Source: Isoetes taiwanensis (Eukaryota > Streptophyta > Lycopodiopsida > Isoetales > Isoetaceae). From it: a stretch of 64,000 nt of DNA. The notes under the pieces are model-generated. The model was not told the origin of the DNA. It saw nothing but the letters and a program-made list of their open reading frames with translations, and searched no databases. The stretch is from assembly GCA_021234155.1 (NCBI GenBank), contig JAJEKV010000052.1, positions 8,479,358-8,543,357 on the forward strand. The letters run 5' to 3'. Positions 1-57,700 of the stretch are shown in pieces. Numbering within the stretch: the first letter of the stretch is position 1; each line of letters begins with the position of its first letter. The position numbers were made by a program, and so were the translations under genes.

Positions 1-1275
1 AACTTATCAACCACCACCATCAGGGCGTCCTTGCCTCTTGCTGTTCTTGGGAGCCCTGTAATGAAGTCCATGCTTATGACCTCCCACTTAGCATTTGCAG
101 CGGCAGCGACTCCAAGGCTCACGGGATTGAAGTGCTCCGCCTTTTTTTTTTTGGCATATCGGCACTCCGCGAATGTACCTTGCAATCTGCTTCTTCATCT
201 TGGGGCAAGTAGCTGCTTCTAATCTTGAAGTATGTCTTCATAAACCACGCATGCCCTGCTATGGGACTATTGTGTGTATCATGGAGGATTAGCTTCCTTA
301 CTCACGAAGATTACGGTACACACAATTTGTTTTATGGTATAGTAAGTTACCCTCCTTCTTATAGTGCCTAAACATCTCCCTTTCCTTATCAGTCCTGGCC
401 TCCTTACAAAGACTTGCCCAAACTTCTTTAAAGTCGGGATCTGTTGGCAAGGTTTCTTCGATCTTCTTTCCATACTCACTTGTGAGCGTTGATATGGCAT
501 TACAGTGCGTCCTCGTCTTCAATGGCTTCCTAGAAAGCGCATCCGCAACTACGTTGAGTTTGTCTGGCTTATAAATTATCTCGAAGTCATATTCTTCGAG
601 GAATTCCATCAACCTCCTTTGCCTCAAATTGAGGAGTGGTTGTGTAAAAATGTATTGGAGGCTTTGATGGTCCGTATCTAGCTGGAACCTTCTCCCAACA
701 GATAGTGCCTCCAAATTTTTAAAGCTCTTACTATAGCCGAAGCTCGATCATCGTCGGGTGGTATTTGCTCTGCCTCATTCATCTTCTTCGAGTCATAGGC
801 CACTACCCTTTCCTCCTGCATGAGGACTGCACCTGTTGCTATCACGCTGGCGTCGTAAGCCACAAGCTTATATTTGGTTGGGTGCGGCAAGACTAGGGAC
901 CGTATTTGTTGTCAAAGCTTCTTTCGTCCCAAACGCTGTATGGGCCTTCTTTTGCCAATGACTTGCCCAATCCTTTATCTTTCCCGCTTTGGTGAGGTCC
1001 CTCAGCGGCGCTGTTACTTTTGCAAAGTTCTTTACAAATTTCCTGTAATATCCTGCTAGGCCGAGGAAGCTTCTCACTTCATGGGTATTCTTCGGTGCCG
1101 GCCAATCAATCACTGCTTCAATCTTCGCAGGGTCCGTGGAAATGCCTTCTGCTGTGATCACATGCCCTAAGTACTCCACCCTTTCTATTGCGAAGTGGCA
1201 CTTGGATAGCTTCGCAAAGAGTTGATGCCTTCTTAGCTTTTCAAGCACCTTTCTTAAGTGCTGGGCACTCTGTGA
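1..1275 (-). mobile_element. Ty3/gypsy pol remnant: RT end, RNase H, integrase start
   Basis: Reading leftward, the fragments follow the Ty3/gypsy order. The 3' part of reverse transcriptase (about 1275-890) shows KCHF, VEYLGH and RSFLGLAGYYRKFV. RNase H (890-298) shows VAYDAS, TDHQSLQY and the family-typical VADALSR. The integrase core starts with MDFITGLP and MVVVDK at about 85-1 and runs off the window. Frame changes near 880 and 700 break the reading frame, so this copy cannot make an intact polyprotein. The RT fragment stops abruptly at about 1275, where the repeat block at 1262-1690 begins; the catalytic YADD part of RT is missing. An LTR and primer site in the same orientation lie at 3800-5250, so this is probably the same element with its front half lost or replaced. 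Confidence 0.9.
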
Positions 1276-1690
1276 GGGGTGGGGCCTTGTTTGGGTCGAG
1301 GATGATGCCAAACATGCAAACTAAGGGTGAAATCCTACTTATCTCGTCGAGATAGGTCGGATTGTGCCCTTGCTTTCTTCATTTGGACAAGTTTTGGCCT
1401 AGATTGAGAATTCGACCACTCACCACGGTCTTGAGGAGCAAATTCGAGAATGGGCGGTTTGGGCGCACTCGCGTGAGGGGTGGGGCTCTATTTGAGTTTG
1501 GGTTGGCCAATTTCTACAATCTAAGGGTCAAATCCTACTAAACACAATGAGTTGAGTCGGATGGTGCCCTTACTTTCTACATTTGGACAAGTCTTGGCAA
1601 AGATCAGTGCTCGACCACTCACCGGCGGTCTTGAGGAGCAAATCCGAGAATGGCCGATTTGGTGCGCGCACTACGTGAGGGGTGGGGCCA
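1262..1690. repeat. Tandem ~200 bp repeat with palindromic module (left block)
   Basis: Two and a fraction copies of a unit of about 200 bp. Each ends in a module of about 75 bp: CCACTCAC, then GAGGAGCAAATTCGAGAATGG, then GGGCGCACT and GTGAGGGGTGGGGC. Modules sit at about 1414-1487 and 1613-1687, and the right half of a third is at 1262-1289. Between modules the copies share 'CTAAGGGT.AAATCCTACT', 'GGAT.GTGCCCTT.CTTTCT' and 'CATTTGGACAAGT.TTGGC'. The two ends of each module are inverted relative to each other (CTCAC against GTGAG), so each could fold as a stem-loop. The RT fragment terminates in the leftmost copy. Confidence 0.85.
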
Positions 1691-1824
1691 AAAACACTGA
1701 GTTTTGCTCCAATTTTGTTCATTCCAAATGCAGAACTTAGTAATACACCCTAATTAAGCATGATTTAACACATTAATTTGACAAAACCATAAATTTGTAT
1801 TTACAAAAATTATTTACAACAGAC

Positions 1825-3094
1825 TTATTGGTCCTCTTTCTTAATGTACTTGGCTAGCCTCATGTCCTTGGGCATGCATGTTACCCTTTTTGCGTGGAGT
1901 GCGCATGCTACCGAGTCTTCAAAGTATTGGACAATCTTCTGCTCGGCTGCTTCCTGTAGCGCGAGTAGCATATCATCAGTTAACCATTTGGTGTTGTCAA
2001 ACTCCTGCAAGATCTCGCGAGTGAGTCTTGCGAAAGGGACTCTCGGTATCAAAAGTCCATAGCTCCTCTGGAAATGCCTAATCTCCCGAGCAGCTCTGGC
2101 AAAATATGAGTCGGCCTTTCTTCTGATCGGCTTCCTCGGAGGTGCTGGTCTCTCAGGGGGCGGCTTCAGTGTGTTCTTCTTGGTTGGCCTGCCTCCTTCG
2201 ACATAGGTGACCCTGTGCTCCTCATAGTACTTTGAGTACTATGAGGACATAGGTGTCACCTATGCCTCCTTCGACATAGGTGACATCTTCATGTACTAGT
2301 TATACTCCTTGAGTTTCTTCCTGTACTCAAGCTCATGCTTGAGTACATAGGACTCCCGCGCAGGCCTTGGCTTCTTCTTGTCCGCTGCCGGGTGCTTCGG
2401 GGACGTCCATCTTGGGTACGGGGGTACCCCTGCTGCTGCCTCCTCCTCTTCATTTCTTGTGTTCGAGGGTCCCGAGCCCTCAGCTAGAGCGGGGACCCTT
2501 ATCCCCTCATCTGACTCAGTGTCAGATGGGGATGGCGGCTTATCGGGCTCTTGCTCCCGAATGACGAATCCTTTGGCTGGGGTCGTCTTTAACTTCCGTC
2601 GGGTGTCTTTAGGCAACTCGGGGGGCTTTCCCCTTGTCTGCCTTCTTCTGCAGGCGCTCCTCCCTGCGCTTCTTGCGCTCCTCCTTCTTCCGTCTCCAAC
2701 GCTCTTCTTTCTCTCGCCGGCGCTCCTCCTTGGTCTTCTTGACCTGTGTTTCTTCATCCTCCCTTTTTCTCTTCCGCTCCTTCTTGTCCAATCTCTTGAG
2801 CTCCCTCTCTAGCTCCCTCCTAAGCTCTTCTACAACTCCCTCTTCCTCCTGGGTTGGTTGGGTCTGGCTGCTCGGGCCCTCCTGATGCTCTGGCTGCTCC
2901 TCCTGAGTATCTTGGGCTCGCTCCTCCTCCAGAGGCTCCTGGACCTCTTCTTGGCCGTCTGTGTTGGCCTCTGCATCCTGTCTCCGCCTGGCTCGCTCTT
3001 GAGCCTGTCTGGCCTTCTGCTGGGCTGCTAGCTCTTGGGCGCTCACGTGATCTGGGGGCATTACGATGCGGGCGGTCTGTTTGGTCTGGGCCAT
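1825..3094 (-). pseudogene. Histone-H3-like protein with very long charged tail insert (interrupted)
   Basis: The start is ATG at 3094 in a good context (AAACATGGCC). The first residues read MAQTKQTAR, matching the canonical H3 start except Arg2 to Gln. A long Gln/Glu/Lys/Arg-rich, probably coiled-coil region follows (about 3060-2620), then a Ser/Pro/acidic stretch with SDTESDEG, then a basic Pro-rich hinge (RPAPPRKPIRRKA). The last ~89 residues (about 2100-1825) align without gaps to the H3 core. Landmarks are REIR, LLI, PF.RL.REI, LALQEAAE, FED, HAKRVT.MPKD and LA. About half the positions are identical by eye. Loop 1 has H3 length, not the longer CENH3 length, although it carries a Trp. 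Breaks: a one-base shift at a C-run near 2620 and three in-frame TAGs (2298-2296, 2262-2260, 2241-2239) in a small rearrangement. Without these it would be roughly 420 residues. Function unknown; nucleosomal incorporation is inference only. Confidence 0.8.
2191..2298. repeat. 73 bp direct duplication with nested palindromes inside the H3-like gene
   Basis: GCCTCCTTCGACATAGGTGA occurs at 2191 and again at 2264, 73 bp apart. Between the copies lie two inverted repeats: a 12 bp arm CCTCATAGTACT with its complement around a 3 nt spacer (about 2219-2245), and CATAGGTG/CACCTATG around one base (about 2248-2264). This patch contains or adjoins all three in-frame stops of the H3-like reading frame, while the frame on either side of it is the same. 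It therefore looks like a late insertion or template-switch event that broke a formerly open gene. Confidence 0.8.
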
Positions 3095-3307
3095 GTTTTG
3101 TATCAACGCAACCCGACTCCTGGCGCCTAAAAATCGTCTTCTGGGACGAGGAGCTGTTTGCTGGAGGAGATACGTGTAAATGAGGAACCCTAATTGTCTA
3201 CTTATAGGTAGGGGGATTTTAGGGTTTGGACCTGCAATTCCATATTATGCCGTTCTAGGGGGCATTAGTGTAGATATGATGGGTACATTAGGTTTATTTA
3301 GCCAAAA

Positions 3308-3615
3308 AGCATCCACCACTCACACAGTGCGTGAGGAGCAAATTCGAGAATGGCGGATTTGGTCTGGGCGCACTCTGTGAGGGGTCACCTCTTTTTGGGT
3401 CTAATTTTCAATTTATAAAGAGTTTCTTAGTGATCTAACATGCAAGACTAGCTAAAATCTAAGGGATAAGCTGAACTACACTATCAGATTAGCTAAATTA
3501 TGCATCTAACTAGGTCAACATGGGTCCACCACTCACACAATGCACGAGAAGCAAATCCGAGCATGGCGGATTTGGTCTGGGCGCACTCTGTGAGGGGTCA
3601 CCTCTTTTTGGCCAA
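3308..3615. repeat. Palindromic module, right block (two copies)
   Basis: Two more copies of the module seen at 1262-1690, here at about 3308-3393 and 3523-3609. They are closer to each other than to the left block: CCACCACTCACACA.TGC at one end, GGCGGATTTGGTCTGGGCGC in the middle, and CACTCTGTGAGGGGTCACC at the other. The ends CTCACACAGTGCG and CGCACTCTGTGAG are near-perfect inverted repeats. The spacer between the copies is about 130 bp and contains CTAAAATCTAAGGGATAAGC, a weak match to the spacer in the left block. Confidence 0.85.
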
Positions 3616-3799
3616 TTTTGGTTGGGTTTTTGCTAAAACTTACTATTAACTTACCATTAACCTATTGACTGCACTAGAAATTGGAATTTTTTTTCCCAAT
3701 TTTCGAGGTTCATGCTTGGGTGGCTATTCCCAAGACTTGAAGTCTACTGTTAGTACTATGGAAAATGGTCAGTGCTCGATCTTGGTCTACCAAGGTCAT

Positions 3800-3811
3800 G
3801 CTCTGATACCA
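3800..3811 (-). promoter_or_regulatory. Primer binding site for initiator Met-tRNA
   Basis: On the - strand this reads TGGTATCAGAGC, complementary to the 3' end of plant initiator Met-tRNA and the usual start site for minus-strand DNA synthesis in plant LTR elements. It lies one base inside the LTR edge (TGTGACGT at 3813 on the + strand). This fixes the element's direction as leftward, the same as the pol fragment at 1-1275. Confidence 0.85.
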
Positions 3812-3812
3812 C

Positions 3813-5250
3813 TGTGACGTCCCCTACTCCTTATACGATGCACACATCGTATCAAAAGGCGGAGCACTTTCCTTGACAGCCAAACTGGCTGGGGCCATCC
3901 ACCTGACTCCACTCCCAGTGGAATGAGCCAACAAGGGAAGAGTGGATGTGTCATTCACCCGTCTCCCTTCGGGTCGACCTATCTGCGGAAGCGTGAATAA
4001 ACATGAGCACATAATAACAATATATCAATACAATCACCTCGAAGGGCAGCAACATCAATATGAACAATATCAACAAATGGGAATCCTACCCAAGGCTCAG
4101 ACTCAAGGGGGTTCGACTGACGGCTTGGGCCTCCAGAAGTCATTGCAGACACAATTCATGGCAAATGGATTTGGCTGGCATAAGAACATAGCTTAGGGTA
4201 GTCCACTCCATCCGCCCCTCCCGTGCACACTTTGCAGAGTAGGTTGAAAAGTATAGGGACCTGACTGTAGCCTGCCGGGTGCATAGCCAAAGGGGCTACT
4301 GCTGGATTGCATCTCCCCAGTCCCGATGAGGCAGGAAAAGAGTCACCTCTCCCCCAGAGGTATCCATGCCCATCACAGGCGGCTAGAGGGCCACTGCCTG
4401 TATTCGACTTGAACCTCATGGAAGGTGACGCATCACCCTAGAGGTGTCGAGCTCATGCCTTGCCCACACTCAGTGACAAGCCATTAAGCCTAGCGCACAT
4501 AAACCCCCGGTAGGCTTTACACACCAGAGGGGTTAAACCGTGATGGGACAAGTTCCTCCTTGTCAACCAGTCTAGTCCCGCCACCCACAACCAGGCAGGC
4601 TCCTGTGCACGGGCCGCATGTAATTGGAAACTAGTAGGCTATCTAGGATCATCTGCTACACAAGCTTTAGGCCTCTACCCCCCTTCCCAATACATGGAGG
4701 TCACAGAGTGAAATACCAACATCATCACAGACTGAAATGAAGAATATCATCTAATCTATCTACCTAAACATCCAGAGTTAGGTTCCTTTGTTAGGGCTTA
4801 TGATCTCGGGATCTGTAAGGCCTCTAAGGCTGATCTAACATGCTAAACCAGCTTATTGCTTTGCCAAAAGGCGGCTTTTACTATGAGAATGACTAATTAC
4901 GGCACTTTCGACCTGCTTCGTGGATCCTCGGAATCGTCCATGCTTCCGATCTTCTTTGAAGATCTTTGCTAATCGAAGATCTATTGTGCAAAGGCGGTTT
5001 TTGGCTTTAACAATGCAATTTGGGTCTTAGCTTGGCCGGAATGGCTCAAGAGAACCCTAAATGCGAGAGAAGGAAAGGAGCTCAAGGGAAACCCTAAATG
5101 CAAAGAGAAGAAAAGGTTTAGGGTTTAAGGGGAAAGCCCTTATATAGAAGCCCTTAGGGTTAGGTTAAACCTTGGCCAAATGGGGTTTAGCCATTTGGCA
5201 ATGGGGTCCATGGGGTTTATAATTGTGTATGTTTATTTAACATGCACAAT
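3813..5250 (-). mobile_element. 5' LTR of the left Ty3/gypsy element
   Basis: The inner edge is set by the primer site and reads CGTCACA on the - strand. The outer edge is not certain: candidates are about 5237-5250 or as far as 5535. Similar blocks occur in the LTR at 53290-54761: CCACTCCATCCGCCCCTCC with GTGCACAC, GCGTGAATA, and CTCTACCCCCC. The two are therefore related LTRs. No gene is visible inside; open frames in it are short and unrelated to known proteins. Confidence 0.65.
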
Positions 5251-5555
5251 ATTCGAGGTTGCCCCCTTAGGTGCAACTCTTGCCCCCTAGGTGCAACCTT
5301 TTACGGCTCTCAAGTACATGTCATTCGTGACATGTACGTGTGTGGACAGCAAGATAATACGTATTCGTTAGGTATATTATCTTTGGAGCGTCTAAATAAG
5401 CATAATATAAAGTGGGCCTTATATCCATTTGGTCGAATTTGCTTATAACAGTACTAAACATGAGTCTTCTAGAAGGTCTCCTTTTATGATTAATTATGGC
5501 TATCAATGCCTAACTCAAGACACGTGGCATAATCCTGTCTCGAATGTCGAGGTCT

Positions 5556-6195
5556 CTTCAATAGTTGCTCACAGATATGCAAAGTTTGGTTGAAGAGGTC
5601 CGTAGATATTTGTTGGCAGCTTGAAGCAGACAAAAGCGTCTTGCAGACAAGCATCGCACATCTCGGAAGTTCCAGGTTGGAGAGTCCGTGTGGCTAAAGA
5701 TCAAGGTCAAGCAAGCCAAGCTCAAGATTTGCAATTGCAAGAAACTGGCACCCCCGATGGGCGGGACCATTCGAGATTATTCAGAGGGTAGGGCCTCAGG
5801 CCTACAAGATCAATCCCCCCCCCGCTCATCTTAAAGACCATAAAGTCTTTCATATGAGCCTTCTAAAAAAGCATATTTCGAATCTAGAGGAAATATTAGA
5901 TACACCCACGCTTCTTGAAATGACGGACGAGCAATTGAAAATTGTTTCAGAGGCTCTTCTTGATCGTGCATACAAGTTGGCTGAGGAAACATCGAGATCC
6001 TGCAATATTTGGTTAAGTGGAAACACTTACTGGCTGAGGATGCCACATGGGTGTTGAAGTTGGATCTCGATAAGACTTATCCGGACTTTATGCGGCAATG
6101 CTAGCGACGTACCATCAACAATACAATCAACCCCAACTCCAGCGATAAGCAAGAAAAGCTTGATCCCGCAGGGGTCATGCATGGAACTGGGGGGT
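5556..6195 (+). mobile_element. Chromovirus integrase C-terminus with chromodomain (fragment)
   Basis: This is the 3' end of a + strand Ty3/gypsy polyprotein. Across frame changes it shows the integrase tail (KFQVGESVWLKIKV, then GPFEIIQRVGPQAYKIN, then VFHMSLLKKHI) and a chromodomain-like end (KWKHLLAEDATW at about 6010-6050). The family uses this domain to read chromatin marks at target sites. Everything upstream of about 5556 is missing, replaced by the LTR of the oppositely oriented element, so one element was cut by the other or by recombination. A frameshift at about 6010 separates KWKH from the preceding frame. Confidence 0.85.
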
Positions 6196-6198
6196 AGA

Positions 6199-6512
6199 TG
6201 CATCTTAGGTAGGGTGGGCATATAAATGGTAAGACGCATTCATCCTAGCGATAATGAGAACATAGCCATTCCTTATGCCGCGATGAATTGCAAGACTTAG
6301 GCATGATAGGATATCCTTTTTTTTTTCATTTTGTTTTGAAAAGGGAGTGGTCCCTTCAACCACAATCTTAATTATTATATAATGTACTAATGTACTGTAA
6401 TTCTGCAGGCCAATAGTGTGTACTAGGCGTCTGTAGTCTCGCTCAAGGCTATAAGAGGTTCGCTTGCTTAATTTCGGTATTCTCAATTGGTGCAAGATTG
6501 GAGCTCGCATCA
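6199..6512 (+). mobile_element. Probable 3' LTR of the chromovirus fragment
   Basis: It begins with TG directly after a purine-rich tract (ACTGGGGGGTAGA, 6186-6198) downstream of the integrase end, and a plausible CA terminus is at 6511-6512 after GAGCTCGCAT. The second LTR is not in the window, so the boundaries rest on these signals alone. The next 500 bases (6513-7060) are AT-rich with direct-repeat-like GAAATCCTATTTAAAT stretches and hold no gene I can support. Confidence 0.45.
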
Positions 6513-7061
6513 TAGGAATTATCTCAGGAAGATAATTCATTGGCTTTTGTGTTGAAAAGCCATTCGATTCTTTTGAAAAGAATCAAGAGGAAGCCAGACT
6601 TTCTGATTAGTTCTCTGGGAGACTAATCCCAACGGTCGTGGGGAGCTCTGGGAGTTCATGGTGTGGGCGATAGACTGTTGGCCCTTCCCCATTATTTGGG
6701 AAGCTGCATAATTACTGCGTGACATCATTTTTGGCATCAGATTCCAGGGATTTGTACGAGCTCTGAAAGTTATGAGATTGCAAGATCTTTGGGAAATCTC
6801 TTATTTTTAAGAGATAGTTGTGATTTTAGATTTTAGAATTAGATTCTAAAAAAATCTAAACACAGTGTTGTGAATCTATTTTTTGGGAAAATCTAGATTG
6901 AACTCTATAAATAAGATTCTTGAAATTTAAATATGGATTGGAAATCCTATTTAAATAAAAACCTTAAGAGTTACTTTGCCATTATAGATTTGTAGGAATC
7001 TAGACTTTAATGGCTTATATTGATGCATCAGTATAAGCCTAGACAGAGAGGGCACATTGGT

Positions 7062-7560
7062 TCAGACGATAGAAAGTCTATATCTACTTACACATGTGCG
7101 CCCTAAAGTGGGACTTGAAGGCTCTTGCAAAGATTTTAAATTTGCACCTGCCCCTTTCAAGCCATGGGATCTCGCATAGCCCTTCCGCCAAATTCTGGCT
7201 GACTTATTGAGGTTGGTAGTGGCCACCTTGCCTATGTCTCTTTCAGTCATGCCGTAAGACTTTCCAAACTTGCCCATCTCATCCAACCAGGATTGAGCAT
7301 CCACTCCCGAACAAGAAGTACCTGAGAACTGGGCGAGTTTGCAATTCTTCCATATACTTGTTATGGCCAAGTCCACTGTCTTTTGATAGTCTTTCTTTTG
7401 CATGGTCGCGATCAGAAGCAGCAGAGTCTGAAGAGTCAGAAGAGTCGGCAGAGTCTGAAGAGTCAGAAGAGTCGGATGAGTCTGAACCGCTATCTGATAA
7501 TGAGGATCTGCGAGCACGTTTTGTGCGAATTGGCGTGACTGGTGCATGGGTTTAATGCTC
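7062..7560 (-). mobile_element. Retrotransposon gag fragment
   Basis: The - strand frame contains KLAQFSGTSC, DAQSWLDEMGKFGKSYGMTERD and KSARIWRKG. This is the usual pattern at the start of Ty3/gypsy Gag ('fsG...p..Wl..me.yf'). Upstream, at about 7500-7415 in another frame, is a run of Ser-Asp repeats (SDSSDSSDSADSSDSSDSAA) encoded by a 15-30 bp tandem repeat. A frameshift at about 7400 separates the two parts. No protease or pol follows, so this is an isolated piece. The serine-acidic repeat also gives an open frame on the opposite strand, which I treat as a shadow. Confidence 0.6.
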
Positions 7561-7631
7561 CAAGGAGGTATATCCCTGGGAATATTCCCAAATCCTAGAG
7601 CTGAGAATGCACTAGAGCACCCATCCACCAT

Positions 7632-9473
7632 AATATATACATGAGGATTTGGTGAGTATGAAACAAACTTAGGGGATTATTTATCAAACAAGTGGATGCT
7701 CATAGGCTTTTATGTTATTCAAATTATTCCGAATTTAAATAGCATGGACTAGTCCCTCAAAAGTGATAGCCCTAGGCTTAAATTATTCCACATCTAAAAT
7801 TGCTCATAGGCTTAAAATATTCCACATCTAAAATGACATCTACTGAATCTATAACTTTATTTACAACTCCCTTGCTTTAAAGTCTCATACAATGTCGGGT
7901 TTGAAGATCTAAAATGGCATTCATGTAATAATAAAATCCATATGCAACTTTCTTTTATAACTTCCTTGTTATTTAAAGCCTTCGTACAAGATTGAGTTTG
8001 AAGAGACCTCATTTTTTAATGTCTTGAAGCATATGATGAAGTAATATAATACTATTGTACCACAATATTCAAACCACATGCACATCAACAAGGAATACAA
8101 TGTTATAAAAAAGGCAACAATATTAGTTAATGGTCCCTCATGTAGATCCTTTGTTTGGTAATTTGAAGCCATTAATTGTTTTATGGTCAAATTGAGACTC
8201 TAGAATCAGAAGATTGGCATGGGGTAAAGCTCAAAGACAAATATCACCCCAATCATAAGTCACTCTCTTACATCATAGCAGAGTCAGACATGACATTTGG
8301 AAGAATTCACATGTAGCACTGTAAGCTGAAGATTATCCTATAAGGGTGAATAAAAGTGCAATTAAACATCGAGAGTGGGCCAGATGAAGGAAAGAGAGGT
8401 GGTTTGATGATGTTGTTTAGCGGTTTGATCGTGTTTTCTGGTCACGAGTTGGGTGCTTCACACCGAACTTCTCAAAAACTACGCGGAGGGTGATTATTTG
8501 AATTGTGTGGGGGGGTTTGTGTGATGTGGAGGAGTGTAAGGCACGTCTGGTGATGAAAAGGTGAAGAATGTATGTGTAATGGAAAGGTTCTCCGGAAGGT
8601 GGGGTTGCTTAAGATACAAGGAAAATCAACAGAAGAAGAAGAAGAAGCAATTTATGTCATGGTTCAAAATTTGAAAAAACTAAATCAACGAAGAAGATAG
8701 TAAGAAGATAGTAGATGGTATTTTAACGACGACGAGAAACCGTAGGTTATAGGACAATTTACAACACACCCCGTATGTTCTTTGTATGTTCTTTGTTCTA
8801 AAAAATTTAGAAAACTAGGGTTATTCTCGAACCACGTTAGCCGGTCAAAACTACCTCCCTTCGCCGGTCAGACCGTGACGGGCTGACGGGCCCTTGACGG
8901 GCGCAAAAAAAATATCGAAAGAAAGTTCAAAGAGCGTGGTATCTTTTTCTTTTTAATTTTGTAGAAGAGGAAGCTCGTCGTGGATGGCTGAAACCGCCGG
9001 ATCCCCTGCTTCGCCATAGCCAAACCTTCTTTCCCATTTTGCTTATTTTCCTTCCCTGCCATAACTTATTTTTTTCTCTAGTTTATTTATCGATTCATGT
9101 TCCTCTCCCTTTGTCTGTTGCCCAGGAAGATTTTTTGAACTCTTCCCTTTGCAGCTTATTTGCTTTGCAATAAGCTTTCCGTTTTGTGACTCTGCATCTC
9201 CCTCCCGGGCTTCCCGTCGTTCTCAGATTTGATAATGCAGGTATTTTCATAACAGCAGTGGAAAGTTCATTGCGAATGCTCGAAAATTTAGATTTGGGCA
9301 TGTCCTGTTTAATGATTAATCTGCTCTCAGCAAGCGGTTCATCTTGGGTAGAGCTCTGAATTCGCATTTTTTTTTTCAATCACAGATTCTGCTACCGGTT
9401 TTGCATCTTCAAGGAGGATTGAGTTTTGGCAGGGACTTAGAATAGATTGAAAATAGTTTGAAAAGGGTAAAGA
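7632..9473. other. Intergenic and 5' region of the ABCB gene
   Basis: No coding region recognised. A 29 bp sequence (TAGGCTTAAA.TATTCCACATC with flanks) is tandemly repeated at about 7772-7800 and 7806-7834. A short GAA microsatellite lies at about 8630-8646. The last few hundred bases before 9474 are pyrimidine-rich and presumably contain the ABCB promoter and 5' untranslated region. I see no convincing TATA box at a fixed distance. Confidence 0.5.
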
Positions 9474-12400
9474 ATGGGCACAGTAGCCGAAGAAAGGCCT
9501 GTAGAAATGGCAAAGATGGAAAAAAAAGAAGATGCAGATTCAAAGGAAAAAGATACAAGCAAATACGCAGTGCCGTTCCACAAATTATTCTCATTTGCAG
9601 ATCCGTTGGATGCGTTGTTTATGTTTGTCGGAACAGTAGGGGCTATTGGAAACGGAATTTCTTTGCCTTTAATGACAGTAGTTTTTGGTCAGCTCACAAA
9701 TGCATTTGGCCAAAATACTGACGACGTGAACAAGCTTGTCGAACAGGTTAACAAGGTACTTATCAAATTTGTCTATTCTGGCAGTATCAGAATTCAGAAC
9801 CTCTGTCTTCGTTATTAAACTTGTTCAATTTGCCATGCTCCTCTCTGTTTCAAAATTGAACTTGTCCTTGTCTCGATTCACAGGTGGCTCTGAAATTCGT
9901 ATACCTTGGAATCGGAGCAGCGGTGGCATCATTTTGTGGTCAGTTCATTTCTGTACTTATCCTGCAGCACGCTTTTGCTTTATCAATTTTTAAATAGCAC
10001 CTGTTATAGCTACCCGTGGATTCTAACGATGTAAAGGTCTTTCTAAGTCTTTGAGACCCCTGATTTCCTTATATATTATTTTCTGAATACTCCATATCTG
10101 TCAGTAGAAACGCCGGACAGGCCAATCCAAGCAATTTTATGTAAACTATTGTCGGTATCGTGGGTTATGCAGTTGTCCATACTTACAAGCCATTTTTTCT
10201 TTTTAGTTAACATTTGTCAGTTTGTATTATTATGATCTTGCAGAGATTGCATTTTGGATGAGCACTGGAGAAAGGCAAGCTGCTCGCATTAGAGGGCTTT
10301 ATTTAAAAGCCATTCTACGGCAGGATGTCGTTTTCTTTGATAAAGAAACGAACACGGGCGAGGTTATTGGTAGAATGGCTGGGGATACTATTCTGATTCA
10401 GGATGCCATCGGTGAAAAGGTCTGCCCAAATACTTAATCCTCCTTCTTTTTGATTTGGGCATAGAATTAAAACCATACGACCGTTCTCTGCAATACGGTA
10501 ACATTTCTCGCTGGCAGATTTTGTCTGTTTCGCTCACGAATCTGCTCCTTGCATTACCCAGTGGACCATGGATAGGATTTCGCTTACCCGGTATGGGAAA
10601 CAGGAACGGGCCCATTACGTCCTGTTCTTGTGCACAGAGTACTTGCAACGTTATGACAAAATCGAGAGATTTGTCTATCCTTTTTATGCCAACCAGAATA
10701 TTGCATACGTTCTCTTCTATGCAAAGGAATCAACCGCGTGTTCTTCATTAAGTCAAGGAACTTGAATGCCAAAATTGAAGGCAATCACAACCCACATCAT
10801 GTAACATTGAAAACCCAGGATGTTTAGCGTAAGGATCTCCTTCCAAGATGTAGGATAAGCACTGCCTCTAAACAAAGAACGCACTACCATTTGCTGTTGC
10901 CTGCAATTTTGGCATTCAAACTTCTACTTTCTGAAACGAGGATCTCGGCAGCTTGTTCTGGTTTACGTCTAGCTAGCATGCTTCAGTTGACTTGGAGTTA
11001 AGAGTCTATGTGATACTTTGTTCTTGTTTCCAATTCAAACACATGATTCTCACAACTAAATTCCCGTTTTATTCAGGTTGGCAAGTTCATACAGATGATG
11101 TCAACATTTATTGGTGGTTTCATAATAGCCTTCATAAAAGGTTGGAAGCTTACCCTGGTTATGCTAGCAGTGATGCCTCCACTGGTAGCCGCCGGAGGTA
11201 CAATGGCCTTTCTTATTTCAAAGATGGCAAGTCGAGGACAACTTGCATATGCAGAGGCGAACACCATTGTTGAGCAAGTAGTTGGTGGCATTAGAACAGT
11301 ATGTAAAAATATGCTTCACCTCATCCACATTGTAATTTAATGATTCTATTCAGCTGCCTGACAAAGTCATTTCTATAATCAAGGTTGCATCTTTTACGGG
11401 CGAAAAGAAGGCTGTTGAGGATTATGACAAGTCATTAAGTAAGGCGTACAAATCTGGTGTGTACCAGGGCTTAGCTTCTGGTCTGGGATTGGGCTCTGCA
11501 CTTCTGATAATGTTCAGCAGCTATGCATTAGCCCTTTGGTATGGATCAAAATTGATTTTGAATCAGGGCTATTCTGGTGGAGCAGTTCTCAATGTGATCT
11601 TTGCAGTCCTTATGGGGGGCATGTGAGTTTTTACAAATGTTTAGGTTGTTATTTCAGGAGAAATATCTCCCTTCAAGGTTTGAGAGTTGGCGTCTCATGT
11701 GTGCATTTATCATTTTCAGGTCACTTGGTCAGACTTCGCCATATGTCAGCGCATTTGCTGCAGGGCGTGCTGCTGCATATAAGATGTTTGAAGTAATCAA
11801 TCGTCAACCTGATATAGATTCTTCTGATCCAAAGGGATTGACTCCTGAGATATCTGGTGACATTGAACTCCGGAATGTTGATTTTACATACCCAGCACGA
11901 CCAGATGTGCAAATATTCAGAAACTTCTCCTTGTCAATTCCCAGTGGTTTAACCGTTGCACTTGTGGGAGAGAGTGGTAGTGGAAAATCAACAGTCATCA
12001 GTTTAATTGAACGGTTTTATGATCCTCAAGCTGGTCAAGTCTTGGTAGATGGTACGGACATAAGGTTGTTCCAGTTAAAATGGTGGAGATATCAAGTGGG
12101 TCTTGTGAGTCAGGAGCCTGTGCTTTTCGGTACCACTATCAGGGAAAACATTGCATATGGTAGAGATGGTGCAACAACGGAGGAAATAAACACAGCAGCT
12201 TACCTTGCCAATGCAACTAAATTTATTGGAAGAATGCCAGACGTAAGAAGGCATCTGATTTATCTATACACCAGAGTTTGTAATGTAGTTTGATATTCTG
12301 CTGTTTCAATTTTAGGGCTTTGATACACAAGTTGGGGAGCGTGGAACCCAGTTATCTGGAGGTCAAAAACAGAGGATAGCAATTGCAAGGGCAATTTTAA

Positions 12401-15131
12401 AGAATCCTAAAATACTTCTGCTTGATGAAGCAACAAGTGCATTAGATGCTGAGTCTGAACGCGTTGTCCAGGAAGCACTTGACCGAATTATGGTTGGTCG
12501 CACCACAATTGTGGTTGCTCATAGGCTTTCAACCATTCGAAATGTGGATTCTATTGCCGTGGTACAGCGTGGTAGTATTGTGGAAATGGGTGAGTTGCAG
12601 TAAACTTATCCTTCTTAAAGTCGAACTATGCCATGTCCTTATATATTGGTGTTATTCTTGCAGGTAAACACATTGATTTGTTACAAAATCTTAATGGTGC
12701 TTATTCTCAGCTTATAAAACTTCAAGAAATGCACGAAGATAACTCGAAAAAGCTAGCTGCACAGGTCGACCCTGATGAAATTATTTTACAAGAACCTCCT
12801 CGTCTAAGTAGAGTTAGCAGCAAGAATTCTTCTGGGCGAAGATCCCTACGTTTTAGTAGAAACTCACTAAGCCTTCCTAGATCATCCAGTGCACGTGCTG
12901 AAGACAATTTTCCAGTAATAGATGCAGAGAAGGGTTTAATGGACCCAGAACCAGAAGCATCTTTTGTCCGGCTTGCAGCATTGAATAAAAAAGAAAGTCC
13001 CATTTTTGTGTTGGGTTCTTTGGCAGCTGTGGGTAATGGTGTTATCTTTCCTATTTTTGGTCTACTTTTCTCAGGGATGATTGGCACATTCTTTGAGACA
13101 AACCGTCACAAATTACGCAAAGATGCAAACTTCTGGTCAATCATGTTTGTAGTCCTTGCAGGAGCAAGTTTCATTGTAGCTCCTTCACAAATCTATTGCT
13201 TCAATCTTGTTGGTCAACGGCTTATTCGTCGTATTCGACGGTTGACTTTTGACAAAGTTGTTCGCCAAGAAATTGGTTGGTTTGATGAGCAAGAGAACTC
13301 AAGGTTTGTATTAATCAAAGAGTATTTTTTACACCTCTATTACTTAGCTAATGGAACAATATTTGCGGTTTTTCTCAGTGGAGCTATAAGTGCAAGACTT
13401 TCAACAGATGCTGCACATGTGCGTAGTATGGTTGGGGATACTCTTTCTCTTGCCGTGCAAAACATAGCAACGATTGTTGCTGGTTTAACGATTGCATACA
13501 CTGCTAATTGGCAGCTGGCTACAATCATGATAGCACTGGTTCCACTTCTTGGTATCCAAGGTTTTATGCAAATGAAGTTAATGACAGGCTTCTCATCTGA
13601 TGCAAAGGTGGTTATCATGATTTGTCATTATTCATAGAGTCTACAATATCATGCCATTGAAACTGCCTTAGACACCCATTGAAGTTCTTAATATCATGCT
13701 CATGTGTTGTGTTGTTTGTTGCAGACCATGTATGAGGAAGCTACTAGAGTTGCTAATGATGCAGTAGGAAGCATTCGCACAGTTGCTTCCTTTTGCATGG
13801 AAGAGAAAATGATTTGCCTTTACAAGGAGAAGTGTAGTCTTCCAATGCGAAATGGTATTCGTGATGGTATTATTAGCGGAATAGGCCTTGCAGCATCAAA
13901 CTTTGTTCTCTTTGGTTCTTATGGCCTCAGTTTCTGGTACGGTGCCCGTCTTGTCAAACAAGGCAAAACAACGTTCCGAAAGGTTTTCAGGGTATGAACT
14001 ATCTTCTTGTTGCTCATAAACTTAATGAAATCCATGTGATGGCTTAGTGTGATCTGCAATATATCTATAGTTCTTGAATGCATTTATCATTTGGATGTTT
14101 TTGCTGACTGTCTAAAACCTGAAATGGCATTATCAGGTCTTTTTTGCTATTACTATGAGTGCGTTAGGTGTTTCACAAACAGCTGGATTGGCTCCTGATT
14201 TTTCAAAGGTCAAAGGAGCTGTTAAGTCAGTGTTTTCAGTGCTTGATCGTGAATCAAGAATAGACCCAGCTGCTAAGGAAGGTTCAAAATTACCTTCAGT
14301 CAAAGGTGACATTGATTTTCAACATGTGAGTTTCAGGTATCCAAGCCGACCTGATGTACAGATCTTTCGGGATCTTTGCTTGACAGTGGCTGCCGGAAAG
14401 GTCAGTTCATCTAAATATATTTCTTTTCTAATTTCCCACCTTCATGTGTTATTGATTGTTGTGCCTGGTATTTTGTTGAATGACAGACAGTAGCATTAGT
14501 AGGAGAAAGTGGAAGTGGGAAATCCACAGTAGTTTCACTTTTAGAACGTTTCTACGATCCTGATTCGGGTCGTATTCTGATTGATGGGGTTGACATTAGA
14601 AAGTTTCAAGTCAAGTGGCTTCGTCAACAGATTGGACTTGTGAGTCAAGAACCCTTACTGTTTAATGGGACCATACGGTCAAATATTGCTTATGGAAGGG
14701 AAGGCATTGTTACTGATGAAGAAGTGAAAGCAGCTGCAAAGGATGCAAATGCTCATAAATTCATAGCCTCTCTTCCTGATGAATATAGCACTGAAGTTGG
14801 TGAAAGAGGCATACAACTTTCTGGCGGACAAAAACAGCGCATAGCAATAGCCAGAGCTATCATAAAAGACCCAAAAATCTTGTTGTTGGATGAAGCTACC
14901 AGTGCCCTAGATGCAGAATCTGAACATATTGTGCAGGAGGCATTAGACCGTGTTATGGTGAACAGAACAACTGTGGTTGTTGCTCATCGACTTTCAACAA
15001 TTGTAAATGCAGACATGATAGCAGTTGTGAAGAATGGGGTCATTGTGGAGAAGGGAAAACACACAGAGCTCATGAGCATCAGGGATGGTGCATATTCATC
15101 TCTTGTGAAGCTGCATTTAAGCTCATCATAG
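9474..15131 (+). CDS. Full-size ABCB (MDR/PGP-type) ABC transporter, 12 coding exons
   Basis: Exons: 9474-9755, 9884-9938, 10244-10419, 11077-11298, 11384-11622, 11720-12242, 12316-12589, 12664-13303, 13379-13607, 13725-13991, 14137-14400, 14487-15131. All introns are GT-AG, and the phases join to 1271 codons plus TAG, the normal length for plant ABCBs. The order is TMD1, NBD1, acidic/Ser-rich linker, TMD2, NBD2. NBD1 has Walker [10 protein letters not shown] (about residue 408), LSGGQKQR (512) and [12 protein letters not shown] (D near 536). NBD2 has the same motifs near 1063, 1168 and 1191, each followed by VAHRLST, so both ATP sites look competent. [22 protein letters not shown] and [24 protein letters not shown] place it near the ABCB4/21 group, which includes plasma-membrane auxin transporters. 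Substrate is not readable from sequence. The 657 bp intron 3 is the longest and holds nothing recognisable. Confidence 0.95.
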
Positions 15132-31739: not shown

Positions 31740-34310
31740 TAATGCATCATCAATAGTAATACATTAACCCCTCCCCTCTCTTCCTCATCAATTTTCTTTA
31801 CATCCATTATTTCTGGACATTCCTCTTTGTAATCCAAGATGTCAAGTATATATACCCCCAAGTATATATAACCCAATTGGACACCTGGAAGATCAAAGAA
31901 ATCAACAAGTGCATAAGCATGTGTACCATGTTTAATGCGGAAATCAATATACGCTGGACGATGAAGAAGCATATGTGCTTCATCTTCAAGTGCCCTAGTA
32001 TCACACAACTTGCATGATCCAAGCTCATGTGGGATATCGTTCCACCTGCCTAGCTCGACCCCTAACCTATGCGAGCTCAATCTCATTCTACATATAGCTT
32101 TTCTATATCTAACCGAGATATTTTCCTGAAGGTACTTGCCTCCTTTTAGCCTACGGTTGATGTGACTTCTATAAAACTCCTTAACTGCACCTTCTCTTTA
32201 GCACACGCGAGTGACATTTCTCCTGACCCATCCCTGTATATCATCCTTATGCATCCCCAAATCATCCGTGTATATCCCTCTACTTCCAGACATTTCACAT
32301 TCCACTAGTAGCATATCATAAGGCGTTTGCATCTTGATGCCAAGTTCCATCGAAAAAATCTTTTCTATACTTTCTCAAATTTTTTCCATCTATCCAATGC
32401 CAAACCTGGCCCCAAACCTCACAACCATACAACACAACTGATTGCACTAAAGTGATATACAACTGTCCTTCATATTAAAATTCGATATATCTGCTTTTCT
32501 ACACCTGCGTTGCATGGCATAGAGGGCTTTAAGCCCACCATCTGTTTTTTGCTCGGCTGCCAAGTTCCAGTTTGAGCTTTTGTCTACAATTAAGCCAAGA
32601 TATTTATAGTTCTCCACCAGCTCACAGGTTCCCCTTTATACAACACTTTTACATGGTCTACTTTATTAGCCCCAAACGGGACTATTTTGGTCTTAGCTAT
32701 ATTTACCTTCGTGCTTTTTGCATCACAAAAGTGGCCCAAAACATTTAGATGTCTCTGTAAACCCGCTACACTCTTGGACAATAGCACAACATCATCAGCA
32801 TATAATAATAATAATAAAAGAACACACCCATTCAGAGTTGTTCCATCATCACCATTTTGCTTAATCCACTCTTCTAATTGATCTACGAAAAGACCAAAAA
32901 GCGTAGGTGATAACGGGCAGCCTTGCTTAACCCCCACATTACTCTCAACATACTCCTCACTAGCGTACGGAAACATGAGCCGAATCAAAACCTTATCATA
33001 AAGCCTCGCAACTGCTTGTCTATATGCAAGTGGTACCTCAAGAGCTATCATTCTGTCCCACAAATGAACTCTTCCTACCATATCAAAGGCTTTTGGAAAG
33101 TCTACAAATAATGCATATAACGGCTTCCTCTTCCCAACCACAACGTCCATCATTGCTCTCATTGTTACACCGTGGTCAGTTGTTGACTTCTTAACCCTGA
33201 ATCCTGCCTGTCCTTTTGCCATCACATTATTAGCTTCAGCCCATGCACTAATTTTAGTGTTCAATATGGTGGAAAAGGGCTTGGCATAGAAGCTACATAT
33301 CATAATCATACAGTAATTATTGGGATCAGATTCATCACCTGCCTTGTGAAGAGGAATGGCCCTATTAATTTGCCATGTATACGGAAAACCTTCTCGCAAG
33401 ACAGCATTGAACAGTTTTAATAGGACTTCTACCACTTTATCTCCTGCTCATTTGAACATTTCAGCCATAAGCCCTCTGCATCGACAGCCTTACCATTAGA
33501 CAACTTTTGTAGCCCATTAGATATGTTCTCAAGGAGAAGCACAACTCTTCTCGATGCATATCGCCCATTGATGTGTCAATACCATTTACGTGGTACAATT
33601 TTTTAATATGCCCCATCAAAGTACTAACCTCAATAGATGTGCTTTTTTTTGAGATGGTTTCAGTCTATTCCAGAACTTTTTGGGGTAAGCAATTAACTCC
33701 CTTACCATTTGCTCATGTTTCCTATGCAAATATGCTCTTTTCTTCCCCTTGACCATCCTAATATACGCTTTTCTAGCTCGAGCTTTTGCATCCCTTTTTG
33801 CCAATCTAAACTTCTCCCTTTGCAATCTGCACTCTCAGCCAAAGCAACCATTGCATGGCAGCCCTGTTCGTTGCCTATTTGAGATGAAACATGTATTGGC
33901 TGACTCCAAACCATCTGAGTAAGAGCATGACTAATGTCTTCCGCACCAACTAGCCATGAAATGGTGGAAATTAGTTTATCACAACAATCTTTGTACTTTT
34001 CAGATTTGTCATACCTCATAATAGGTTTAAGGGATGGTTGTGGCACAGCATCATGGACAGGCATGCCTGCAATACGAAGGACAATAAATAAAGGTTCATG
34101 GTCAGACTCAATATTGTCCTTTCCGATAGAAAAACTAGCCACGTTGTGCAAAACAGGGACTGGCCAAAACATAGGCTATCACACTCGCTTCTCTACAATG
34201 TAAGTGCTCCTGTTCGTGGAAATTTGGTCGTCCCATTGTAGATGACCAAATTTAAGGCGCTGTAAAAAGCCAGAACATGATTACCCTAGGGAGAGGGTCA
34301 ACATATGTTG
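31740..34310 (-). mobile_element. Second LINE: endonuclease end, RT and C-terminal region (5'-truncated)
   Basis: Going leftward, about 34290-34090 holds the endonuclease end (LNLVIYNGT, then SDHEPL). A basic linker follows (33825-33616). The RT domain is open from 33435 to 32590, with KGQAGFRVKKSTTDH, LFVDFPKAFD, GVKQGCPLSPTLFGLFVDQLEEW and LYADDVVLLSKSVAGLQ, so YADD is intact. The C-terminal region (32086-31740) has MRLSSHRLGVELGRWNDIP and CDTRALEDEAHMLL. It belongs to the same broad clade as the LINE at 22900-25999. The 5' end stops where the copia LTR begins (34329). Several frame breaks make it inactive. Confidence 0.9.
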
Positions 34311-53289: not shown

Positions 53290-54761
53290 AGCCATGGCTT
53301 GAGGGCCCTCCAGTCTAACTTCCGGGACCTTCAATGGGCTCTATGCCAGCGGAGCGTGAATACAAGGTTAGCACCGAAGCATAATCATATCATAGAAATA
53401 CCACCATGAAGGGTGGCATCCATGTGATAACAACAAAGAAAGGCGCGCAATACTAGAGAAAACACCCAAAACCGTGGTGGTTCTACCCGGCTCCGGACTC
53501 CGGTGTGGATTGATGACTGGGTCTCAAGAGAATCGGCCAGGTCTCTTGGCATGGCGTTAGGCTGACGGCATAGAACATCGGCTAGGGTTTGTCCACTCCA
53601 TCCGCCCCTCCGGTGCACACTGCCGGATGAGTGAATCATGCTATGGCATCCCTATAAGCCTTCAGGAGATCACGAGACTCAAGGTATCATCCTTCCGAGC
53701 CTACTCTGAGGTTTCATGAAGACACTGTCCAGGCCGGCAGTCGAGAACGTCCCCTTCCAGGGATGTAAGCGGTTCCATGGGTGAACCAGAGAATACGATG
53801 CTTGTCCAACCCGCGCATCCATACAGGCCGTACTCCTACAAATCTACTCAAGTATAGGGTGCCCCATGCGGGTCACACCCTCCCGCACCAGTGTGAGACC
53901 CATGCACCCGACCCTCGTGACTGGAAGCTACTGGGGCCTAGCCCCTTTGTAGAGTCGGGGGGCCTTGTATGTTAGGTGCAAGACCCACCCCACTTCACCC
54001 TTTGCGTCCCTTCCACGGTGCTAAGCAATCCCATAGCATCCATGATTTCGGTGGTCTCTTGTTACCTGAGCGCCATGAAATGCTGGAAATTAAAGGAGCT
54101 ACTAGGAGCATACTAAAGTATATGTACGAAGGTCTCTACCCCCCTCTAATCCACACTTTCACAGTCTAATAGAGATGCTTTCATAGATTCATCCATCCAT
54201 AATAAAACATAATCCATAGTGAAATGTAATCCTAAATACCAAGAAGGGTTAATCCTAAGCTTAAAAGAGCAACTTGGGAGAAGACTCAAAGAACTTGGCT
54301 AGCGCTATAGAGATATCAACTAGATTATCTACTAACTTGAGTTTCGACGATCCATTATCATGAAACCTCCATCTCCGATAACACGGGTGTTCGACTAACA
54401 ACTTCAACAGCGGGGTGTTCAACCATGATTCCGGGTACTTAATTTCAATTTGCTCCTCCTCTGGCTCGATTTTGGGGTCAAATGGGATAGTGATCCCACC
54501 TTGATGGCCCAAGTTAGCATTCCCATGCTGGCCAATCCGAATTTGGCGGGTGTACCTTCCCAAGTAATCAATTAACAATTAAACCAATTAGATATTAATT
54601 CCTTAATTATGGGTAAGCAACCTTTAATAATTAATTTAAGATAGCTAAATTAATCCTTTTAGGTCAACCCCTAGGTTACAATACCCCATGGTGGCGTGCC
54701 TTTCTTGGGTGGCGTGTTGGTGTATTGCTCATTATCTGGTATAAATGCTTGGAATGTCACA
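53290..54761 (-). mobile_element. 3' LTR of the right Ty3/gypsy relic
   Basis: The outer boundary at 54761 is well marked. On the - strand the purine tract AAGGAGGGGAGAA (54774-54762) is followed directly by TGTGACATTCC, the expected plus-strand primer and LTR start. The lower edge is estimated at about 53290 from the last similarity to the LTR at 3813-5250 (GCGTGAATA near 53356, CCACTCCATCCGCCCCTCC near 53592). No gene inside. Confidence 0.7.
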
Positions 54762-57700
54762 TTCTCCCCTCCTTAGAAATAATTGTCCCTCGACATTAGG
54801 GTTGAATCAAAACATATAGGAAATTATATTATGAAGGAAGGTAATTCCTCATTTTAGAAGGTAATAACATTAAAACTTAAAGTTTAAAAGCGGTTTAAGC
54901 AGAGTTGCATTTTGACATCTTATCACAAGAAGGTTCAAGGACCAAAGTCCGATATCAAACATCGAGTAACAAAAGGTAACACATGTAGGCAAGATAAAAG
55001 CTGGAAAAGTCCGGACCATCGGGAAGCCTCTATACATGGAAGTAGTCCGCGTACTACTCATGACACACACATGTGAACTATCGATATATATAGATAAGAT
55101 AAATGAGTTTGTGGTTGAAAGGGACCACCTACATATAAGAAATAAAAAGAAAAACCTATCTATAAGGGAACCTATCATACCCTATAGTTGTGAATTCATT
55201 TCGCAGTAAGGAATGGTCAAAGTTCCCCATTATAGCCCGAATGAAACCGCGACCTATTAACTACATGCTTTCCGAGCTTGAATTGGCCGGTCAAATAGAT
55301 GTTGACAATACACCATGTCCTAGAGAACAGCCAGTGATCTCATCATGGGTAACTATTATTAAACACGATGCATCTACCTCTCTCTTTGCATGATTCTCAA
55401 TGAATCAAGCCTTCAAGCTTCTTTGCCGAGGGCGGGGTTAATAGCATCATTGATGGTGCGTGGTGAGATTGGCATGAAGTTCCGGATAGTGCTTCTCAAG
55501 GGTCTATCTTCGTATTACCCATGGCATCCTCGGTGGTAAGTGTTTCCACTTGACCAAATTATTGCAGCATTTGACTCCGCCGATCTGCTTATAGGCTCGA
55601 TCAAAGAAGAGCTTGACACTATATCTAGATGCTCTTCTATCATTTCAAGAGGTTGGGTTGTATCAAGATCTCCTGCGGATGCAGGTTGTGTTGTTTGAAG
55701 ACTCCATTGAAGACCTTGTGGATCTTCAAAGCGGTGCTTAATTCAAAAGCGGTATGCACGATTTCTCCAACACCACGTTCAATAATTTTGAGCGGCCAGC
55801 CATCGGAGTGCCCGGCTTCTTTGCGATTACCAATCTTAAGCAGCTTGTTTTACTTTAATCTTCGTAAGCGGTTAAGCCCTGGAAGACTGCATTGGGGTTA
55901 CGTCTTATACGCTACACTCTTACGGCCCCATTTGCGTGCAATAATAGCTCACGAACCTCTTCACCCAAAGCTTGCATTTCCAAAGAGGAGTTGTTGAGAA
56001 ACCTCCCACCTTAGAAGCGAGGGTTATACCGTAATACGGAAGTAAGGCATTGATAACATAATTTATCATAAAGGGAGACATTAGGAACACTCACGGGCAC
56101 CATCTTTGTTATAGAGCAAATTGACGGATAAATATAGTCGACCCATTGTGATTGCTTACACTCCCACACATAACCGTAACGCCTTATCCTCTATAATACG
56201 ATTGGTGCGGCTCTATCGACCATCCGTCGGGGATGATATCTTTGTACTCATAGCAGCTTGGTTTGGATGGTTGAAAATCTTTCAAAATGCACTTACAAAT
56301 TTGGGATCCCGTGGGATACAATAACTCGTGGCATTAGTGCGATCTAAAGATCTCCTTTGCAAATGGCAAAGGTGCTCCGAAGAAGCTGCTTATCCATTGA
56401 TGCGACATGGCGAAAATGAGCCATTTTGACAATTTGTCAACCACTACCATCAATCCGTATCCCGCGGAGAGTTCGTGGAAGGCCCGATGAAATCCATGGT
56501 TATCACTTCCCCTTAGGCGTTGGGCATCCGGAGGTTGCAACTCTCCTGGAGTCCTTAATTGCTCAGTCTTGGTTTGTTGACACCTTGACACTGCTTAATG
56601 TACCGCAATGTCGCTTTCATGGGGGCCGGGAAATAAGGCGGTGGGTTTCATAGAGCTTTGCGTATCCCTATACTCATTTTGTTATTGTGTGTCATGGAGA
56701 ATTGGCTGCATTACTCTGAAGTCGCGGTACACACAACTTATCCTTGTATTATAACATATATGCCCTCGCTTATATGAGCGGAGGCTTCCGTTCTTTTTAT
56801 GCGGCTTCTTCGCCAGCCATTATCCCACACCCCTCGCGGAACTGGATCGTGGCCAAATGCTGCTCTATACGTTTTCAGAACTCACTGGTGAGTGTGGAAA
56901 TCGCGTTCCCTAATGGGTTAGGGTTGCAAGGGATGGCGTGACAAAGCGCATCCGCCGACCACATTATTTCCCGGGCTTATACATAATCTCAAAATCATAC
57001 TCTCAAAATTCATCCATCTTCTCGGCGGAGGTTGAGATTAAATTTAGGTGGATGAATATGAGAACTTCGATGATACGTATCAAGTTGAAATCTTCTACCA
57101 AAAAGGTAGTGTCTCCATATGCAGGCGGACAATGGCTAACAACTCGATCATGGGTAGGGTATGTTTATTGGTGTCATTCATTTTCTTTGAATCGCAGGCA
57201 ACTAACCCTATCCTCTGGCGTTAAGGACTCCACTTGCGTTAGCAATCTTCACGGGCATCGTTGCTACTAATTTATCCTTTTTAGGGATCGGGCAATGTGA
57301 GGACTTTGAGTGTGATGTTAAAGCATCCTTAAGCTTCGAAAACTTCCTGGACCTTTGCTTTCCAATGCTCAATCAATCCCTTCACTTTTTCGTGCTTGCT
57401 GTAAGATCGATTGTTGCCAATCCTAAGAAACCGGACCTCTGAAACATTAAAACACGGAATGGGGCTATCTTTCTTTGAATCGATGCCAATTCCTTCTGCT
57501 GAAATGGCTTATGTCAAATGATCTACCCAGAATTGGCAAACTTGCACTTGAGAACTTGGCAAAATTTGGTGGCGATCTTAGCTTTGTAGAGACCAACCGA
57601 AGATGTTTCTCATGCTCCTCGAGGTCTTACTATAGATGAGAATGTCGTCGAAAATAACAACAAAAATCATCAAGTATTATCCGGAAGACATCATTCATGT

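Follow-up and report, generated by a model that had tools for sequence, protein, structure and literature searches.

Histone H3-like (H3L) genes carried by mobile elements are known from fungi, namely from the hAT DNA transposons of Pyrenophora tritici-repentis (PMC3538342) and Pseudocercospora fijiensis (PMC6710886). For the latter, the consulted part of the account infers the capture of a transcript or a retrocopy and gives a 136-aa H3 as the product of the source gene (PMC6710886).

Outside mobile elements, the nearest parallels to the gene described here are CSE4 and plant CENH3 proteins. In CSE4 of Candida theae (P0010, 419 aa), about 300 residues precede a C-terminal H3 fold, but this arm starts with MADQP instead of an H3 start and loop 1 is longer than that of H3. 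The initial annotation of our locus named no known counterpart of its layout among H3 variants and CENH3 proteins; as CSE4 shows, an arm of about 300 residues ahead of an H3 fold does occur. The nearest group with respect to the fold, albeit weakly, is plant CENH3, represented by a Syzygium protein identified by name (P0161) and by Ceratopteris and Riccia proteins assigned by reading of their folds (P0158 and P0002, respectively). P0161 begins with MARTKQTA, close to the H3-type start of our gene, but all three proteins have arms of fewer than about 110 residues, against about 300, and a longer loop 1.

Here we describe an H3-like gene from the lycophyte Isoetes taiwanensis, situated in a window (the whole stretch of DNA analysed) of 64,000 nucleotides. 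In our preferred reading it resembles the fungal H3L genes in being an H3-derived coding sequence borne by a mobile element. However, the fungal carriers are DNA transposons with terminal inverted repeats, whereas the present gene lies in a Ty3/gypsy remnant; furthermore, the consulted portions of the fungal reports mention no long insert between tail and fold. A partial literature search, covering few subscription papers and no preprints, recovered no report of a retrotransposon encoding an H3 protein with a long insert, and the word "histone" has 0 occurrences in the accessible text of the review PMC6431247.

Anatomy and coherence of the gene

The gene occupies positions 3094-1825 of the minus strand as three open pieces, in which an H3-type start is followed by about 300 charged and Pro-rich residues and then by an ungapped H3 fold. 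Piece A (2609-3094) opens with MAQTKQTARIVMPP. Its start, MAQTKQTAR (3094-3068), agrees with H3 at 8 of 9 residues and leads into a charged, coiled-coil-like insert; where H3 has K9, the window copy carries I. Piece B (2296-2633), delimited by a codon-position model within an open frame spanning 2808-2296, continues the insert as acidic, Pro-rich sequence. Piece C (1825-2238) shares the frame of B and comprises, ahead of the H3 fold (approximately 1834-2094), a short stretch rich in Pro and Lys; it ends in a stop. A candidate TATA-like word lies upstream of the start codon at 3198-3206 on the same strand, and the entire reading covers 1.27 kb with no recognised intron.

As had been proposed, the copy is interrupted. 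The codon-position model, trained on 3094-2820 together with piece C, favours the frame of A down to approximately 2633-2555 and the frame of B afterwards. This, taken together with the frame shared by B and C, indicates that the interruption consists of a single frame change and a single stretch with in-frame stops (2239-2295, minus strand) between B and C. The latter overlaps a local direct and inverted repeat, and the copy, with these two lesions beside a local rearrangement, is dead as read. The rearranged segment, at 2190-2284 within the gene, combines a local direct repeat with an overlapping 80% inverted repeat and resembles a template-switch scar.

Codon statistics support the reading of the three pieces as one gene. 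In addition to the frame preferences, third-position GC is 0.59-0.69 in pieces A, B and C, as against 0.49-0.51 in three frames of the neighbouring pol and 0.30-0.35 in four open frames from two other genes of the window. The start was evaluated against 20000 plain shuffles of 1825-4200, read in the three frames of the minus strand: TKQTAR occurred 6 times, and MA.TKQ (or M..TKQTAR) 4 times, per 20000 shuffles. The length of the open frames was dropped as evidence, given that 12 of 300 dinucleotide shuffles contained a run of at least 161 codons at equal composition. That same figure, along with the low complexity of the region, is what can be said for a chance neighbourhood of an H3 pseudogene fragment and unrelated charged reading frames. 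This explanation nevertheless appears highly improbable in view of the codon statistics joining the pieces, the rarity of the start motif among the shuffles, and the intact proteins elsewhere that show an identical order. The charged region is thus not the contribution of an unrelated neighbour, the circumstance under which the fusion would have been an artefact of the locus.

The H3 fold

The fold aligns without gaps to H3, with 47 of 87 residues identical (E 3e-25 in the search of the window), and matches the Pfam Histone profile (PF00125) with E 2.1e-23, scoring 83.3 bits where the cut-off is 26.4; piece C is the only one of the gene pieces with a Pfam match. A convincing H3 match was obtained at one place only within the window. 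The H3-type histone fold is complete and places the protein in the histone H3 family. All 60 matches listed from a PDB sequence search with the fold are H3-named. The structural model of piece C (mean pLDDT 73) contains helices at residues 45-60, 66-80, 88-119 and 123-136, and yielded 71 Foldseek matches in the PDB at E ≤0.001, the best 50 of which all come from nucleosome or histone structures and score modestly (at the top, E 1.2e-4, query TM 0.45 and rmsd 7.7).

Retention was scored at what we take to be the H3-H3' bundle, DNA-contact and core positions of the fold. The window fold retains 9 of the 11 bundle positions. By contrast with canonical H3, its arm measures about 300 instead of about 40 residues and 9 of 23 DNA-contact positions are kept; for comparison, P0001 keeps 15, P0063 17 and P0222 19 of the 23. 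The loop-1 arginine is lost in the gapless register. At the core positions the window fold retains 19 of 34, below the six comparison proteins (21-30), which may represent drift rather than function.

Retrotransposon remnants around the gene

The gene sits between a likely primer-binding site (PBS) with an adjoining LTR edge, both recognised by word match and eye, and a gypsy pol, all in one orientation. Upstream, at 3800-3811 on the minus strand, lies the word TGGTATCAGAGC, presumably the usual primer-binding word for the initiator Met tRNA. Immediately beyond is an LTR candidate (3813-5400, minus strand), whose near edge is defined by a TG beside the PBS word and whose far edge was placed by eye; no second LTR was seen within the window. 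Beyond the end of the gene, on the same strand and in several frames, follow a Ty3/gypsy reverse transcriptase reduced to its rear part (RT; 868-1264), the RNase H (298-911, in two frames, 678-911 and 298-747) and the integrase zinc-binding domain (119-301; E 7.9e-5, under the curated cut-off) of the same pol. The RT piece aligns to the RT/RNase H chain of Ty3 (E 7e-18) from residue 224 of 478 onwards, so that about 220 front residues are absent, and the match stops near a repeat edge at 1265. Two of the Pfam matches in this pol score under the curated cut-offs, namely RVT_1 with 18.3 bits and Integrase_H2C2, the zinc-binding domain, with 23.1 bits. Among ten further open frames, drawn from the stretch between PBS and pol and from the LTR candidate beside it, none matched Pfam at E 0.1; hence gag, protease and the RT front are unrecognised between PBS and pol. 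The gene is flanked by direct repeats on both sides, with about 200-base spacing beyond its end (1265-1690) and 213-base spacing upstream (3303-3619), the two sets being 80-85% alike in matched stretches.

Several other segments of the window are of related or contrasting character. An integrase C-terminal end (5698-6057, plus strand; SH3_Tf2-1, E 8e-13) belongs to another, oppositely oriented gypsy element adjoining the LTR candidate. A second gypsy remnant at 53567-57236 resembles both the pol segment at 268-835 and part of the LTR candidate, and a reverse transcriptase of non-LTR type, as judged by eye, occupies 32590-33447 on the minus strand (RVT_1, E 1.2e-24). A gene for an ABCB-type transporter is represented by open frames at 11598-15131 on the plus strand, with an ABC_tran match (E 1.8e-33) at 14484-15131; an ABCB-like frame scores 166 bits with animal P-gp and a nearly equal 159.5 bits with a protein named ABC transporter B family member 19.

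These surroundings agree with the suggestion of the initial annotation that the protein might be element-encoded. We tentatively favour an interpretation that still falls a little short of probable: a mobile element carried a gene for a long-tailed H3-like protein, and the locus preserves a decayed copy of that gene. The carrier would probably have been a non-autonomous derivative of Ty3/gypsy type, with the gene and the repeats on either side of it occupying the place of gag, protease and the RT front. The similarity of the direct repeats on either side, the end of the RT match at the repeat edge near 1265 and the TATA-like word at 3206 could alternatively point to an element of another type, such as a DNA transposon, or else a tandem-repeat unit that brings its own promoter, which landed in or beside an unrelated gypsy remnant. 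We consider this unlikely: the RT front does not resume across the gene, where instead the PBS and LTR edge are encountered and the flanking frames tried lack Pfam matches, and no terminal inverted repeat bounding the gene unit was reported in 1-8000.

A family of intact long-tailed H3 proteins

A protein search queried with the fold region of the read-through sequence (search 1) yielded 44 matches among 331 candidates. The top match, P0001, is an unnamed protein of 348 residues that starts with MVKTKQTARK and ends in a C-terminal H3 fold. P0001 used in turn as a query (search 2) produced 6573 matches among 7939 scored candidates, the best 120 of which were listed, and a search with piece C (search 3) gave 86 matches among 120 candidates, headed by a CENH3-like Ceratopteris richardii protein of 147 residues (55%). 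Delimited by a profile of its insert, an unnamed family that we label TE1, with P0001, P0063 and P0095 as examples, accounts for at least 93 members (93 of the 157 matches listed from searches 1 and 2), whereas none of the 86 proteins of search 3 belongs to it by the same profile. The listed TE1 proteins are unnamed, come from "ena" contigs and group into 90%-clusters that contain as many as 41 members. Their order is H3 start, about 250 residues, H3 fold; at least 42 of the 93 listed members display both start and fold by pattern, with 251-264 residues between them. Given that this large set of intact, unnamed proteins shares the order, the odd layout of the window gene is real and recurrent.

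Conservation within TE1 is uneven along the protein. In an alignment that imposed no start pattern, counted over those listed members that reach the respective columns, 63 of 64 retain K4, all 67 of 67 retain R8 and 64 of 67 retain K9, and the T6 and A7 columns vary. Averaged over alignment columns in 33 members, the majority residue has a share of 0.64 at 10-75, 0.86 at 76-130, 0.74 at 131-245 and, within the fold, 0.91; the insert includes a conserved middle block, GMDPSFI.YYREHGMTPYLMESLMTKRGWT. This pattern suggests selection; as the open-frame list favours intact members, it is to be read as a hint of selection instead of a test. By their copy number and the absence of names, TE1 proteins may themselves be element-borne. 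Their predicted structure (mean pLDDT 39) was unusable.

The initial annotation had directed attention to intact relatives of the interrupted copy, and in this respect the outcome was mixed: TE1 supplies uninterrupted proteins of the same order, but neither a close relative nor a second copy of the window gene appeared in searches 1 and 3 or in the viral contig scan. No relative was recovered from viral contigs scanned with P0001, P0222, piece C and the TE1 alignment A2 (which covers 45 of the 93 members or near members), nor from genome contigs scanned with A2. A viral structure library gave nothing at E 0.001, its top two entries being viral H2A-like proteins (4.4e-3 and 6.1e-3). A homology between the inserts of TE1 and the window gene had been suggested by eye (KYYxEH, YVEGG) and is unsupported by the profile: the scores of three parts of the window insert were reached by 237, 22 and 132 of 300 shuffles each. 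Thus, with an insert that shows no detectable kinship to that of the window gene, TE1 is an analogue and no proven relative, and the long-tailed H3 layout, as far as the sequences suggest, probably arose more than once.

Other unusual H3-like proteins were encountered in these searches. P0027 and P0043 carry MAKTKQTPRKQTGG 87 residues ahead of the fold and have a longer loop 1. P0009, P0202 and P0222 are long H3 fusions that share a QY[ST]GPCL insert and in which no H3 start was seen; P0217 is a short piece with a fold similar to theirs. In P0002 of Riccia sorocarpa a CENH3-like fold is joined to a choline monooxygenase, probably through a gene-model fusion.

Affinities of the fold

Two TE1 members share 70-71 of 88 fold residues with H3, against 47 of 88 for the window gene, and TE1 falls inside the H3 group in a 49-row fold tree. 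The window row, which is long-branched in the fold trees, joins the Riccia and Ceratopteris proteins in the 49-row tree, a placement that carries a long-branch warning, and groups weakly with plant CENH3 in a 42-row tree (84/59). Constraining it in the latter tree to the H3 group is disfavoured (p-AU 0.026); with TE1 the p-AU is 0.081. When the Riccia row is removed, its nearest neighbours by path are Auxenochlorella P0169 and the Ceratopteris protein. In contrast, its loop 1 has the length seen in H3 (gapless) and not that of CENH3, with gaps needed against P0158, P0161 and P0002. The fold may therefore be CENH3-derived rather than H3-derived, but the trees point that way weakly. With TE1 derived from H3 and the window copy perhaps from CENH3, their common layout would be a product of convergence.

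An affinity with CENH3 bears on a further explanation, namely that the transcript of a long-armed host CENH3 or divergent H3 variant was copied into, or retrocopied beside, a retrotransposon and has decayed since, with no service to the element. We regard such passive capture as a serious possibility, if less than probable. It accords with the weak grouping of the fold, with the best named match being a short CENH3-like Ceratopteris protein, and with the occurrence of a MARTKQTA start in some plant CENH3 (P0161), as well as with the intron-free aspect of the 1.27 kb reading, its broken frame and the failure to find further copies in searches 1 and 3 or the viral contig scan. A precedent exists in the capture of H3 transcripts by fungal transposable elements, in the part of that account consulted (PMC6710886). 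Conversely, the H3 length of loop 1 and the uniformly H3-named PDB sequence matches do not favour a CENH3 source, and no host protein with such an arm emerged from searches 1 and 3. The repeats on both sides of the gene and the lack, by eye, of a poly(A) trace 3' of the stop codon also speak against it.

Possible function and evolutionary implications

Under the preferred reading of an element-borne gene, which would have moved as a part of the element, the protein can be assigned a putative role. Its H3 fold would pair with host H4 and, given that the H3-H3' bundle residues are kept, also with itself, with a weaker grip on DNA. The long charged arm, whose tip imitates the H3 tail around K4, might thereby be brought into chromatin or to histone chaperones. 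The element could gain from this in that its own DNA would be packaged or marked, or in that host readers and writers of the H3 tail would be tied up during silencing. Overall, the interpretation of the initial annotation is partly supported by these results.

A broader and rather doubtful extension of this scenario is that elements in large eukaryotic genomes repeatedly evolved long-armed histones, which enter chromatin with H4 and whose imitation tail helps the element to evade or redirect silencing, or else targets its integration. The window gene would then be a dead, CENH3-leaning member of this class and TE1 a living and diversified one.

The element-borne H3 genes described in fungi are amplified copies of a housekeeping gene. 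TE1, in turn, retains K4, R8, K9, the middle block and the fold in members that, among the matches listed, are only 55% identical to the query over the whole length, which suggests a selectable role. If elements do make the TE1 proteins, these would represent a histone serving the element instead of the host, and tail mimicry and co-assembly with H4 on the part of elements would become directly testable.
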